Assembly (NCBI GenBank): GCA_913050035.1
Contig: CAJXAC010000008.1
Coordinates: 1 to 52,068 of the forward strand
Direction: 5' to 3'
Source of the DNA: an uncultured Gammaproteobacteria bacterium
Lineage (GTDB): Bacteria > Pseudomonadota > Gammaproteobacteria > Pseudomonadales > Azotimanducaceae
Length of the DNA: 52,068 nucleotides
Shown: positions 11,599 through 21,979 of the stretch, in pieces
Position numbering within the stretch: position 1 is the first letter of the stretch
Layout: the number at the start of each line of letters is the position of its first letter
Position numbers and translations under genes: made by a program
The notes under the pieces: generated by a model
Database searches by the model: none
Told to the model about the DNA's origin: nothing
Seen by the model: the letters and a program-made list of their open reading frames with translations, nothing else

Positions 11599-12516
11599 TC
11601 AGACTTGGGAGGGGTTATTTAATTCCGAACCAAGTAGCTCGTGGGCTCGCCGGTCGAAAATATCGCGCACGAAGTCCATAAATACTTTGACCCGTTTGGT
11701 GCTGCGCAGATCTGGGTGGGTCAGCATCCACATGGATGGACCGAGCACCGGTGGAATATTGCCAACCCTTAACAGGCCCGGATCTGACTCCGCCAGAATA
11801 CAAGGCAAAAACGCGTACCCCAGACCTTGGCGTACCGCTTCGAGTTGCAGCAGCAGACTATGATTACGGACATGGATGCGCGCATTAGCAGCGTGGGCGG
11901 CACGTAGGCGACGGCTCACACGGCTCATCTCACTATCGGCAAGGTAGTCGACCCAAATATTGTCCTCACCGCCGGGTAAAATCCCCGCTCGGGTATCCCG
12001 GTCAATTAACTCTTGGGACCCATATGCGGCAATAGCGATTGGCGATAATGAACGGCCAACCAAGTTTTCTGCCGGATGATCTGTTACCTCTATAAGGACG
12101 TCCGCTTCGCGTATGTTGATGTTGGGCCGTTGATGACCAGGAACCAAGCTAATTTCAATGTCTGGATATGCGTCCTGGAACCGAGAAAGCTCTTTCACCA
12201 GTAGGCTTAAAGCGATGACTTCAGGAATTACTACCCGCACCAGCCCCGACAGTCGTTGATCCTGCCCTATCAACTTACCTTCGATATTGCCCAGATCCGC
12301 CGCGATTTCGTTGACCCCGGCAATAACTTCGGCCCCTTCGGGAGTAATGGTGAGACCCCGCGGCGAACGGGTGAATAACTGCACCCCTAAACGTTGTTCA
12401 AAATGCTCCAGACGCCTGCTGACCGTCGACGGATTGACATCCAGCTGCTCTGCCGCCGCGCGCACCGAGCGCGTAGCCGCCACGGCACTGAAATATTTAT
12501 AGTCATCCCAATCCAT
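11599..12516 (-). CDS. LysR-family transcriptional regulator
   Basis: 305 residues. The N-terminal winged helix-turn-helix (FSAVAATRSVRAAAEQLDV, then NPSTVSRRLEHFEQRLG) is followed by a periplasmic-binding-protein-like effector domain. The subgroup resembles regulators that start with a DWDD-type N-terminus and act on nearby metabolic genes. It is divergent from a ~410-base gene-free stretch containing a small RNA candidate and, beyond that, an enoyl-CoA hydratase, so that region could hold its operator. Effector unknown. Confidence 0.88.
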   Translation of the reverse strand: MDWDDYKYFSAVAATRSVRAAAEQLDVNPSTVSRRLEHFEQRLGVQLFTRSPRGLTITPEGAEVIAGVNEIAADLGNIEGKLIGQDQRLSGLVRVVIPEVIALSLLVKELSRFQDAYPDIEISLVPGHQRPNINIREADVLIEVTDHPAENLVGRSLSPIAIAAYGSQELIDRDTRAGILPGGEDNIWVDYLADSEMSRVSRRLRAAHAANARIHVRNHSLLLQLEAVRQGLGYAFLPCILAESDPGLLRVGNIPPVLGPSMWMLTHPDLRSTKRVKVFMDFVRDIFDRRAHELLGSELNNPSQV

Positions 12517-12736
12517 CTAAATACCTTGAGAAGTCCGAAAAGCCTGGAGTTATCTCCTTAACATAATCTGGCGAATCTGTGCGTAGCAAAAATCATGGTA
12601 CTGGCCTCGCAGGCCGACAATAGGGCAAATTCTTGCAAAAAATCCATAATGCACGCAGTTATCTCTATTAAACACCAAACATTCAGTGTTGCATATAAGC
12701 AATCTGGTGTTGCGTAACTTAATGTGGCATTATTTT

Positions 12737-12875
12737 GTTACTGCAAGTAACATGGCTTCAACGGTGAGACATAACACCGATTACTAGAGGGATATCCGAA
12801 CCTCCTCTCCCCTCCCCTCCTCGGATATCCCTCCCCCTCTTCTAACGGGGACCACGAAAGTGGTCCCCGTTTTTT
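12737..12875 (+). ncRNA. Candidate small RNA with anti-Shine-Dalgarno-like hairpin loop
   Basis: A perfect 13-bp inverted repeat (12787-12799 with 12821-12833) encloses a 21-base loop made almost only of C and T (12800-12820; it contains CCTCC three times). About ten bases later comes an intrinsic terminator. A hairpin with a CCUCC-rich loop followed by a terminator is the plan of the CcsR RNAs of Rhodobacter and of sX13 of Xanthomonas, which act through C-rich loops on G-rich ribosome sites. The 5' end is not fixed; a weak promoter (TTGCGT 12710, TATTTT 12731) would start near 12743. Plus strand only, as the T run requires. Confidence 0.6.
12844..12875 (+). terminator. Strong intrinsic terminator
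   Basis: A perfect 12-bp stem (arms 12844-12855 and 12860-12871) is closed by a GAAA tetraloop, and a run of six T covers 12870-12875. No annotated gene ends before it on the plus strand, which supports a non-coding transcript. Confidence 0.88.
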
Positions 12876-12927
12876 GTTGCATTCGTTATTATCCAGCGGT
12901 CTCAGTGTTACCCCACAGGCAGTACTT

Positions 12928-13731
12928 ATGCCCCAAGCTAGCTACCCATACGAGCATATTCAGCTCGACAAAGAGGACCACGTGGCGTGGCTGCGCTTTA
13001 ATCGCGTCGCCAAGGCCAACGCGATGAATTACGCCCATTTATGGGAAGTGGAGCACGCTGCGCTGTCATTGCGCGACGATGCGGATATTCGTGTAGTGGT
13101 TCTTACCGGTAATGGCCCGCATTTTTGCTCCGGCGCCGATTTAACGGACCCCGGAGAACCCGACGACATGCCGTTGGTACTGCGCCGGCGCCGGGCGCGA
13201 ATGGGTGAGCGGGCCATCGAAGCGGTTCTAGATATCGATCAAATTACGATCGCAGCGTGGCATGGGGCGGCCATGGGCGGGGGTGCTTGTCTTGCGACAG
13301 CATGTGATTTTCGTATCGGCAGCGATGACTGTTTTATGCAATACCCAGAAATCGATATCGGCATAAACCTGATGTGGAAAAGTCTGCCCTTACTCGTCAA
13401 TCTGATCGGCCCGGCACGAGCTAAACGACTGGTTATCGGCGGCGAACGCATGCACTCGGAGACCCTTCTGAACTGGGGCATACTGGACCAACGTGTGCCT
13501 CGAGAAAATCTTCTGGCGGCGGCAACAGACATGGCTAAACATTACGTTAACAAGCCGCCCATCGCCGCACAGATGATCAAACAGTCGACCAATCAAATTT
13601 CCAACGCCTTAAACCACGCCTTAATGCACATGGACGCAGACCAAAATCTGCTGGCGGCTTCGAGCGAAGACCGTAAAGAGGCGATCAAGAGTTATATGGA
13701 AAAATCCACGCCCACGTTTAAGGGTAATTAA
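12928..13731 (+). CDS. Enoyl-CoA hydratase/isomerase (crotonase) family protein
   Basis: 267 residues from ATG 12928. Crotonase features: VVVLTGNGPHFCSGADLTD forms the first oxyanion strand, and AAWHGAAMGGGACLATACDFRIG the second, with the acidic residue in the later YPEIDIGI region. The family hydrates or isomerises 2-enoyl-CoA, or performs related acyl-CoA reactions. The frame continues upstream to TTG 12874, but that would run through the terminator T tract, so the later ATG is used. It converges with the Rieske gene (stop codons two bases apart). Confidence 0.85.
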   Translation: MPQASYPYEHIQLDKEDHVAWLRFNRVAKANAMNYAHLWEVEHAALSLRDDADIRVVVLTGNGPHFCSGADLTDPGEPDDMPLVLRRRRARMGERAIEAVLDIDQITIAAWHGAAMGGGACLATACDFRIGSDDCFMQYPEIDIGINLMWKSLPLLVNLIGPARAKRLVIGGERMHSETLLNWGILDQRVPRENLLAAATDMAKHYVNKPPIAAQMIKQSTNQISNALNHALMHMDADQNLLAASSEDRKEAIKSYMEKSTPTFKGN

Positions 13732-17845: not shown

Positions 17846-18715
17846 ATGCAAATTGGCGCGGTATTTCCACACAACGAAATCGGGACCGACCCCGGTGCAA
17901 TAAAGGCTTTCGCTCAAGGCGTCGAGGCCCTGGGCATTAGCCACCTATTAATCTACGACCATGTGCTGGGGGCAGATCCAGATCGTGAGGGCGGTTTTCG
18001 CGGCGCTTACGATAAAGACGTGGCCTTTCATGAACCATTCACAACATTTGCCTTCATAGCCGCAGTGACTGAAAAATTGGAGATGATCACTACAGTAATG
18101 ATCTTGCCCCAGCGCCAGACTGTGCTGGCTGCCAAGCAGGCGGCCGAGGTGGCGCTACTGTCCAACAACCGCTTTCGGCTTGGCGTTGGCGTAGGTTGGA
18201 ATGAACTCGAGTACGTGGGTCTGAATGAAACATTTAACAATCGCGGGCGCCGCCAAGCCGAACAAGTGGAAGTTATGCGAAAACTTTGGAGCGAAGACTC
18301 CTTAGATTATACCGGCGACTACCATCGCATAGACAAAGCCAGCATTAATCCGCGCCCCAGCAAACAGATTCCGATCTGGTTCGGCGGTTCGGCGCCGGCA
18401 CTATTAGATCGCGTAGCACGCCTCGGCGATGGCTGGATACCATTGATGGGTGCGAACGAAAAAGCCCAAGCCTGCATCGACAAGATTAAGGCCACCCGCG
18501 AAGCTGCCGGGCTTAGCTTTGATAATTTTGGGATTCAGGCCCAGGCCCAATATTCCGGCGGCTCACCAGAACGCTGGCAAAAACATGCTCGGGCATGGCG
18601 TGATATGGGCTGTACCCACATCGCTATCGCCACACATAATGCCGGGCCAACAAATGTCGACGGCCATTTGGCGCGCATACGCGAATATCAGGATGCTCTG
18701 AACGACTTGGGTTAA
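17846..18715 (+). CDS. Luciferase-like (LLM) flavin-dependent oxidoreductase
   Basis: 289 residues forming one TIM-barrel LLM domain: AVFPHNEIG start, LEMITTVMILPQRQTVLAAKQAAEVALLS and FGGSAPALLDRVARLGDGW near 180-200. Such proteins are often labelled F420-dependent, but gammaproteobacteria commonly use FMN; no F420 genes are in the window. A very strong AGGAGGGG ribosome site precedes the ATG and is complementary to the loop of the small RNA candidate. Its stop codon overlaps the stop of the convergent LLM gene (TTAA). Confidence 0.86.
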   Translation: MQIGAVFPHNEIGTDPGAIKAFAQGVEALGISHLLIYDHVLGADPDREGGFRGAYDKDVAFHEPFTTFAFIAAVTEKLEMITTVMILPQRQTVLAAKQAAEVALLSNNRFRLGVGVGWNELEYVGLNETFNNRGRRQAEQVEVMRKLWSEDSLDYTGDYHRIDKASINPRPSKQIPIWFGGSAPALLDRVARLGDGWIPLMGANEKAQACIDKIKATREAAGLSFDNFGIQAQAQYSGGSPERWQKHARAWRDMGCTHIAIATHNAGPTNVDGHLARIREYQDALNDLG

Positions 18716-21241: not shown

Positions 21242-21979
21242 TCAGCGCATTGAACTGGGTTTAACCCTCGGTCCTGCCACCGCAGTATGTCGATCAAACC
21301 ATGCATCCGCGGAGTCATTGATGCGTGCACGCATTCCAGTCTTAATTTTTTGCGGCGTTCCAGCGGGAAAGTCTGCAAAACGCTGACATAGCGCCCGTGC
21401 ATTCGCCAGCACTTGCTCATCCGCCACTGACTCGTTGGCCAAACCCAGACGCATCAGGTCAGCAGCCTGCAAACGGTCGCCGATCAATGTCACTTCAGCA
21501 ATAACCCGCTCGCTGTGGCGCAAATTGAGCCAAGCCATGTTGTAGGGGGCAGCCATACCGATTTGCACCTCGCCAACCTGCAAGAAGGCCTGTTCACCCG
21601 CGACCAGATAGTCGCAGGCAATCGCCAGCGCCGCCCCACCGTTGATTGCATAGCGTTCTAACGCTCCAACAATCGGCTTGGTACAATTGAATAAAGCACT
21701 ATGCGCGCGCCGCCAAGTGGTCTGAAAGCCAGCAACCCAGGCGGGCTCTGGCTCAGCGTTAAACGCATTGAGATCAAGACCTGAACAAAACGCGCCACCC
21801 GCACCGTGGAGCAAAATTGCCTGCACCTGCCCATCGCCCTGCAGTTCTTCGAACGCATCGGCCAATTGCTCACCAAACGGTCCGGTGATAGCGTTTTTGC
21901 GCTCGGGACGATTCAACATGATCTCACCCCAACAGCCACCTGCTTCGGTGTGCTGCTTGCGCCATTCCACTTCAGCCAT
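21242..21979 (-). CDS. Enoyl-CoA hydratase/isomerase family protein
   Basis: 245 residues, crotonase fold: AILLHGAGGAFCSGLDLNAF and YAINGGAALAIACDYLVAG give the two oxyanion-hole strands; VGEVQIGMAAPYNM follows. Different from the hydratase at 12.9 kb. It starts nine bases after the DMT transporter stop on the same strand, as last gene of MATE-DMT-hydratase. The reaction (hydration, isomerisation or other) is not decided by the visible residues. Confidence 0.85.
   Translation of the reverse strand: MAEVEWRKQHTEAGGCWGEIMLNRPERKNAITGPFGEQLADAFEELQGDGQVQAILLHGAGGAFCSGLDLNAFNAEPEPAWVAGFQTTWRRAHSALFNCTKPIVGALERYAINGGAALAIACDYLVAGEQAFLQVGEVQIGMAAPYNMAWLNLRHSERVIAEVTLIGDRLQAADLMRLGLANESVADEQVLANARALCQRFADFPAGTPQKIKTGMRARINDSADAWFDRHTAVAGPRVKPSSMR

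Follow-up and report, generated by a model that had tools for sequence, protein, structure and literature searches.

The locus comprises a gap without genes, flanked by a divergent LysR-type regulator gene and an enoyl-CoA hydratase/isomerase family gene, in a 52,068-nt stretch of DNA that was analyzed as a whole and is called the window here. The features of the gap and its flanks are given below by window coordinates.

11599-12516, minus strand: divergent LysR-type regulator gene (PF00126 and PF03466).
12688-12703, plus strand: palindrome GTTGC-N6-GCAAT, probable LysR-type recognition box, with its centre at about -64 from the inferred start.
12709-12718, plus strand: GTTGCGTAAC (GTTGCGTTAC in many relatives), probable LysR-type activation box, recognized from the upstream blocks of relatives.
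12725-12730, plus strand: weak -35 TGGCAT (TTGCA-type in many relatives), placed by its position relative to TAACAT with a spacer of 17.
12736-12752, no strand: palindromic operator TGTTAC-N5-GTAACA, conserved in relatives and overlapping the inferred core promoter.
12748-12753, plus strand: -10-like TAACAT (nearly all copies listed have TAACAT or TAACAA, one has TAACAC and one TAACTT).
12760-12875, plus strand: predicted small RNA of about 116 nt, delimited by the promoter-like block and the terminator.
12762-12779, plus strand: small 5' leader hairpin, CGGTG/CACCG, from the fold (a leader hairpin was also present in some of six relatives folded).
12787-12833, plus strand: conserved 13-bp hairpin, supported by covariation.
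12800-12820, plus strand: 21-nt C/U loop (19-25 nt in relatives), with a mean unpaired probability of 1.00 in the fold.
12844-12875, plus strand: intrinsic terminator with a 12-bp stem (12844-12871), a GAAA loop and a T tract.
12928-13731, plus strand: downstream gene of the enoyl-CoA hydratase/isomerase family (PF00378).

The hairpin is formed by perfect pairing of positions 12787-12799 (GAGGGATATCCGA) with positions 12821-12833. The loop between them, ACCTCCTCTCCCCTCCCCTCC, has its sole purine at the first base and contains CCTCC three times. The fold of positions 12700-12900 gave a z score of -6.46 relative to 200 shuffled sequences, none of which was equally stable, and no listed open reading frame of at least 60 amino acids lies over the hairpin. 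The initial annotation of this DNA had described a 13-bp hairpin, a 21-nt C/U loop, a 12-bp terminator stem capped by GAAA and a gap into which no gene reads, and all of these are present in the window as it described them. It had placed the start of the element at 12737, a position that belongs to the operator palindrome; transcription of the RNA probably begins close to 12760, which would make it about 116 nt long. A scan of the window and of loci L001-L093 for stems of at least 10 pairs that enclose a C-rich pyrimidine loop of 15-31 nt detected only this one site in the window, and by eye the sites detected in relatives appear to be this element again. The genome from which the window comes (91.67% complete) contains one copy of the RNA element. 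A small coding RNA was considered and rejected because the short frames in the leader differ between relatives when compared by eye.

The stem of the hairpin is maintained by compensating changes. The smaller of two alignments contained 25 distinct hairpins, of which 11 of the 13 pairs showed changes on both sides; 94.4% of its cells were paired, a percentage that is biased upward since the hairpins were picked by a script that demands long stems, and the both-side changes are less affected by this choice. Its covariation score was reached by none of 500 shuffles, and slid versions of the alignment paired in 26-54% of cells. The number of further pair types was a moderate measure, reached by 33 of the 500 shuffles. 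The larger alignment, which was fitted to the covariance model and includes the sequences of the smaller one, consisted of 58 model matches in 47 distinct rows. Here 95.6% of cells were paired compared with 24-57% in slid versions, both-side changes were found in 12 of the 13 pairs among the 47 distinct hairpins, and again none of 500 shuffles reached the covariation score. The initial annotation had held that its proposal would fall if stem pairing and the C-rich loop were not conserved in related genomes; the opposite was observed, as nearly every pair covaries and the loops stay C-rich. Judged by these patterns of change, the hairpin very probably belongs to a real structured RNA gene. The gene very probably encodes a small regulatory RNA of marine gammaproteobacteria in which a hairpin holds a C/U loop.

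The distribution of the RNA was evaluated by protein, DNA and covariance searches. When one-per-species genomes were searched with the hydratase protein, 73 loci were recovered, almost all of them from metagenome-assembled genomes (MAGs) labelled Gammaproteobacteria or Pseudomonadales, some of the HTCC2089 or K189A clade, plus a small number of others. Many of these loci contained the same type of hairpin upstream of the hydratase, with different stem letters and a C/U loop. By DNA search, the element was present in 22 of 58 genomes, all from one genus. The covariance search of related genomes, which had been suggested in the initial annotation, found the hairpin in 30 of 40 genomes of the genus and in 61 of 206 genomes of the family, the latter distributed among 12 of 37 genera (model R1; searches spanning more than 40 genomes were run with stricter filters). 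The same model matched four of 390 genomes in a sample of the order, all from the genus of the window, and two of 369 in a sample of the class, namely the window's own genome and one genome of another order. That genome was the single match outside the family across the order and class samples. More than one copy was present in three of the 30 matching genus genomes (G017, G020, and G058). Some absences are assembly gaps: the operator block of G034 lies at a contig end beside a LysR frame, and in G036 the operator block and the hairpin lie at the ends of two separate contigs.

The match in the other order (L137, positions 1501-1550; E = 1.3e-6) has a C/U-rich loop within a terminator-like hairpin near an Rrf2-family gene, and a SufB-like frame was seen by eye in its surroundings. 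This match may be an independent look-alike. Comparison of the window with Rfam gave no match at the gathering score and, up to E = 10, only four sub-threshold matches to unrelated families, all on the minus strand. With the terms used, no paper on this or a similar RNA family in marine gammaproteobacteria or Pseudomonadales was found in the open-access literature searched.

The composition of the loop is conserved to a high degree. Among 46 distinct loops (L137 left out), one purine was found in 665 core positions, and purines were otherwise limited to the first three or last four positions. The loops are 19-25 nt long with a median of 21 nt, and C and U interchange at many columns. CCCC and CUCC were detected in all 46 loops, CCUCC in 44, CCCCUCCCC in 36 and ACCUCCU in six. 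In each of the seven transcripts that were folded, the loop was unpaired with a probability of 1.00. The initial annotation had read the loop as a mimic of the anti-Shine-Dalgarno sequence. A strict mimic was rejected as the conserved feature, ACCUCCU being restricted to six loops when CCCC is present in every one, so the exact sequence of the 16S tail is not what the loops preserve; the conserved feature, as read from the aligned loops, is a C-rich pyrimidine tract.

The surroundings of the RNA were compared for 52 copies at examined loci, which are a subset of all model matches in the genus and family. A terminator-like hairpin (at least seven pairs and a T tract within 150 nt downstream) was found in 31 of the 52 copies and in 11 of 156 stretches drawn at random from these loci. 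No simple terminator was detected within 150 nt in the other 21 copies, so the 3' end of the RNA is not uniform. Among these 21, folding revealed longer, bulged hairpins with T's in L008 and a run of four T's in L087. In 33 of the 52 copies, a hydratase gene on the strand of the RNA has its start no more than 200 nt downstream; in eight the gene is farther away, and in 11 it is not present in the searched stretch. Of 49 scored copies, 32 have a divergent LysR gene no farther than 450 nt away, two copies at contig edges and one of undetermined state having been left out of the scoring. It is absent at that range in 17 copies, four of which are tandem copies with the LysR gene farther upstream. 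Several copies without a near hydratase keep the divergent LysR gene. Tandem copies, two in L009 and three in L010, each have an operator with at most one mismatch. The distance between operator and hairpin ranges from 32 to 109 nt, and both ends are conserved. No viral contig carrying the hydratase was confirmed. A TTCGTTATTATCC-type stretch 3' of the terminator (12876-12927), with look-alikes in relatives by eye, may be the -10 of a hydratase promoter.

The conserved block upstream of the RNA contains the elements expected of a regulated promoter. A strict sigma-70 scan of positions 12500-13000 called no promoters, which fits an activator-dependent promoter, yet also counts against the promoter assignment. 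LysR-type proteins usually bind at about -64 from the transcription start, and the LysR-type box, GTTGC-N6-GCAAC, is located about 48 nt upstream of the operator. The box, written as GTTGC-N5..7-GCAAC with at most one mismatch, was present in 28 of 32 copies that adjoin a LysR gene and in none of 17 copies without one (Fisher 9e-10; p-values for this box are overstated because the copies share ancestry). The inner motif, GCAA-N5..7-GTTGC, was present in all 32 LysR-adjoining copies and in two of the 17 others, both of them tandem copies by eye. This pattern of occurrence argues that the RNA is likely under LysR control where the LysR gene is adjacent.

The operator GTTAC-N5-GTAAC was found in all 50 readable copies (46 perfect and four with one mismatch), and in the copies of relatives it overlaps the TTGCA-type or TGGCAT -35 and the TAACAT-type -10. 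The exact 17-bp form, TGTTAC-N5-GTAACA, occurs at 63 sites in the 40 genus genomes, with two sites in 24 genomes, three in two, one in nine and none in five; the reversed 17-bp pattern, used as a control, was present in two of the 40 genomes. Twenty-seven of the sites are at the RNA, 22 are at gntR and 14 are elsewhere; of these 14, five of which were inspected, two are RNA loci broken by contig ends (G034 and G036). In L257 and L258, near position 1501, the 17-bp form precedes, by eye, small proteins that look secreted, with another LysR-like frame close by. A gntR match was detected in 36 of the 40 genus genomes, and of 30 gntR loci read, 29 have the GTTAC-N5-GTAAC box ahead of the gene, the single miss being near a contig end. 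The gntR gene of the window's own genome (G000:C27:29303-30148; L142 and L173) is followed by a gene for an efflux-type membrane-fusion protein, and a third site of a shorter operator pattern in the same genome precedes another efflux-type membrane-fusion gene. The leaders of this gntR gene and of those in relatives (L174-L202) also contain TGGTC-N-GACCA-type repeats, which a loose pattern picks up in 26 of 29 leaders and which we take to resemble the FadR operator. A role of GTTAC-N5-GTAAC as GntR's own operator was dropped, as the gntR leaders carry these separate, FadR-like repeats. GntR may bind the repeats, which stand beside the GTTAC-N5-GTAAC box, so no factor is assigned to that box.

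Several known RNAs display C-rich loops or act as decoys. CcsR RNAs carry C-rich loops, and decoys of the CsrB/RsmY type have GGA sites, many per RNA. Compared with these decoys, the RNA described here has the opposite composition (C/U) and one site, and the likeness applies only if its loop holds a protein. The sX13 RNA of Xanthomonas is a compact, structured small RNA of 115 nt with apical CCCC loops, and it works independently of Hfq, its C-rich loops targeting G-rich motifs close to translation starts (PMC3771888). The two RNAs share a CCCC loop motif, a gammaproteobacterial host and a similar size (about 116 nt predicted here). In contrast, sX13 as described carries 4C or 5C motifs in three C-rich loops and is located beside polA, whereas the present RNA has one long pyrimidine loop and, in the window, lysR and hydratase flanks. 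The alpha-r14/cuckoo RNAs, NfeR1, and SmelA075/A099 are alphaproteobacterial and have three or four hairpins, each with CCUCCUCCC (PMC10746234; PMC3927594). They resemble the present RNA in displaying an anti-Shine-Dalgarno-like C/U motif in loops on variable stems, but CCUCCUCCC is absent from the window loop and there is a single C/U hairpin here. CcsR1-4 of Rhodobacter are cut from the ccaF1 transcript, have an RpoHI/RpoHII promoter and form a cluster of homologous small RNAs that ends in a Rho-independent terminator (PMC10253847). Clustered homologous small RNAs with a Rho-independent terminator are the point of likeness. The neighbors differ, with ccaF1 (DUF1127) described for CcsR and LysR and hydratase genes here, and the tandem copies in relatives of the present RNA each have an operator.

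The membership features tested for the cuckoo/alpha-r14, CcsR and sX13 RNAs and for any Rfam family were not found in the RNA. A single-stranded apical CCCC loop, the feature of C-rich-loop antisense RNAs, was present in every distinct loop and unpaired in all seven folds. Given how common CCCC is and how rare ACCUCCU is among the loops, the RNA resembles sX13 more than the cuckoo RNAs. Because it lacks the tested defining features of sX13, cuckoo and CcsR, we file it as a new family that is probably sX13-like in action. The initial annotation had assigned it to the functional class of CcsR and sX13; it may work like them, but by the tested defining features it is not a member of either family.

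Candidate target sites were found at the starts of several genes. With the first ATG of each frame taken as the start, GGGG was present at -20 to -1 in four of 44 window genes, and three of the four, scanned against Pfam, corresponded to a luciferase-like monooxygenase, an enoyl-CoA hydratase and a MAPEG protein. With starts defined in the same way, GGAG, GAGG or AGGA was present at -20 to -1 in 12 of the 44 genes (window positions 1071-51419). G-rich ribosome sites stand out because these classical Shine-Dalgarno 4-mers are uncommon in the window genes. With one mismatch allowed at most, GGAGGGGAGG matches at 40 places in the window's own genome, three of them inside the RNA itself; the reversed pattern is the same string and was uninformative as a control. 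A search of the loop against ribosome sites had been suggested in the initial annotation, and it produced hits, which are candidates only: six of the 27 inspected matches outside the RNA are at ATG starts, where the genes encode an SDR, a CoA-transferase III, a nitronate monooxygenase, two enoyl-CoA hydratases, and an amidase. Two more of the 27 (L153 and L159) are at possible GTG or TTG starts. Within the window, the genes that start at 17846 and, on the minus strand, at 21979 are examples with candidate ribosome sites. GGAGG-like motifs at start codons are expected anyway. GGGG was located within 32 nt upstream of one of these candidate hydratases in nine of 17 genomes with the RNA and in none of four without it, a weak, post hoc comparison made by eye on the 22 of 25 loci that were read, with G034, which lacks the GGGG, excluded as its RNA was probably lost to a contig end. 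The own genome gave 45 first-look candidates for this hydratase, and these genomes are rich in catabolic genes. As leads, the candidate sites point to catabolic genes but fall short of proof; the likely targets would be genes of acyl-CoA and other catabolism.

The proximity of the hydratase gene raises the possibility that the hairpin is a cis-acting leader or attenuator of that gene, and both the short distance in 33 of the 52 copies and the 21 copies without a simple terminator would agree with such a role. We consider this quite improbable: the hydratase is farther away or missing from the searched stretch in other copies, several of which still have the divergent LysR gene, the tandem copies each have their own operator, and the minimum-energy folds of seven transcripts contain no competing pairing between hairpin and terminator. 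The minus strand could be the functional one, as the reverse complement of the loop, GGAGGGGAGGGGAGAGGAGG, is GGA-rich and could bind a CsrA/RsmA protein; the model does score that strand, weakly, at 34.1 bits vs. 73.4 bits on the plus strand. This is scarcely credible when the terminator, the T tract and the promoter-like block of the window all point to the plus strand and 31 of the 52 copies have a terminator-like hairpin downstream on it. The operator palindromes are among the strongest DNA conservation, and an element that acts at the level of DNA only, as an operator cluster with an incidental hairpin, would account for them, but it would leave unexplained the stem covariation and the pyrimidine loop 32-109 nt from the operator start. 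It is highly unlikely to be the full explanation of the locus.

The composition of the loop is also what a protein decoy would need, in which the loop would bind and hold a pyrimidine-reading protein (Rho, S1, a cold-shock or a KH-domain protein) as CsrB's counterpart for pyrimidines. Composition seems to be under selection, given the single purine in the loop cores, the C/U swaps and the variable length, and antisense seeds need less than a loop of 19-25 nt. C/U swapping is, however, equally expected under mRNA pairing because G pairs with both, CCCC and CUCC are present in every loop, each RNA has one such hairpin, and just three of the 30 matching genus genomes have more than one copy. We regard a decoy as unlikely. 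More doubtful again is a form in which a LysR sensor drives the decoy and the loop titrates Rho, S1 or a cold-shock protein, with the result that a metabolic signal would shift general termination or translation and not single mRNAs. We lean toward antisense action on the G-rich ribosome sites of mRNAs.

In the antisense reading, the locus would produce a small RNA of about 116 nt that stands alone and acts in trans. The promoter, with a weak -35, would be switched on by the divergent LysR-type regulator where the gene for that regulator is present, and a second factor at GTTAC-N5-GTAAC would gate the small-RNA promoter. The stiff 13-bp stem would display the 19-25 nt loop, nearly free of purines, and in several mRNAs the loop may pair with G-rich stretches (GGGG or GGAGGGG type) that lie in or close to the ribosome-binding sites. 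Both C and U could pair with G, and binding of the loop would lower the translation of the paired mRNAs.

The RNA represents a well-supported family, unmatched in the Rfam copy searched, from bacteria known here only as MAGs. Its features suggest a further independent origin of a C-rich-loop regulator, here with a single long loop that is nearly free of purines. That the composition is fixed and the order of C and U is freer raises the question of whether the loop pairs with G-rich ribosome sites or holds a pyrimidine-reading protein. The promoter boxes link the RNA to a LysR-type regulator and to the gntR gene, and this link provides a physiological handle on its function.
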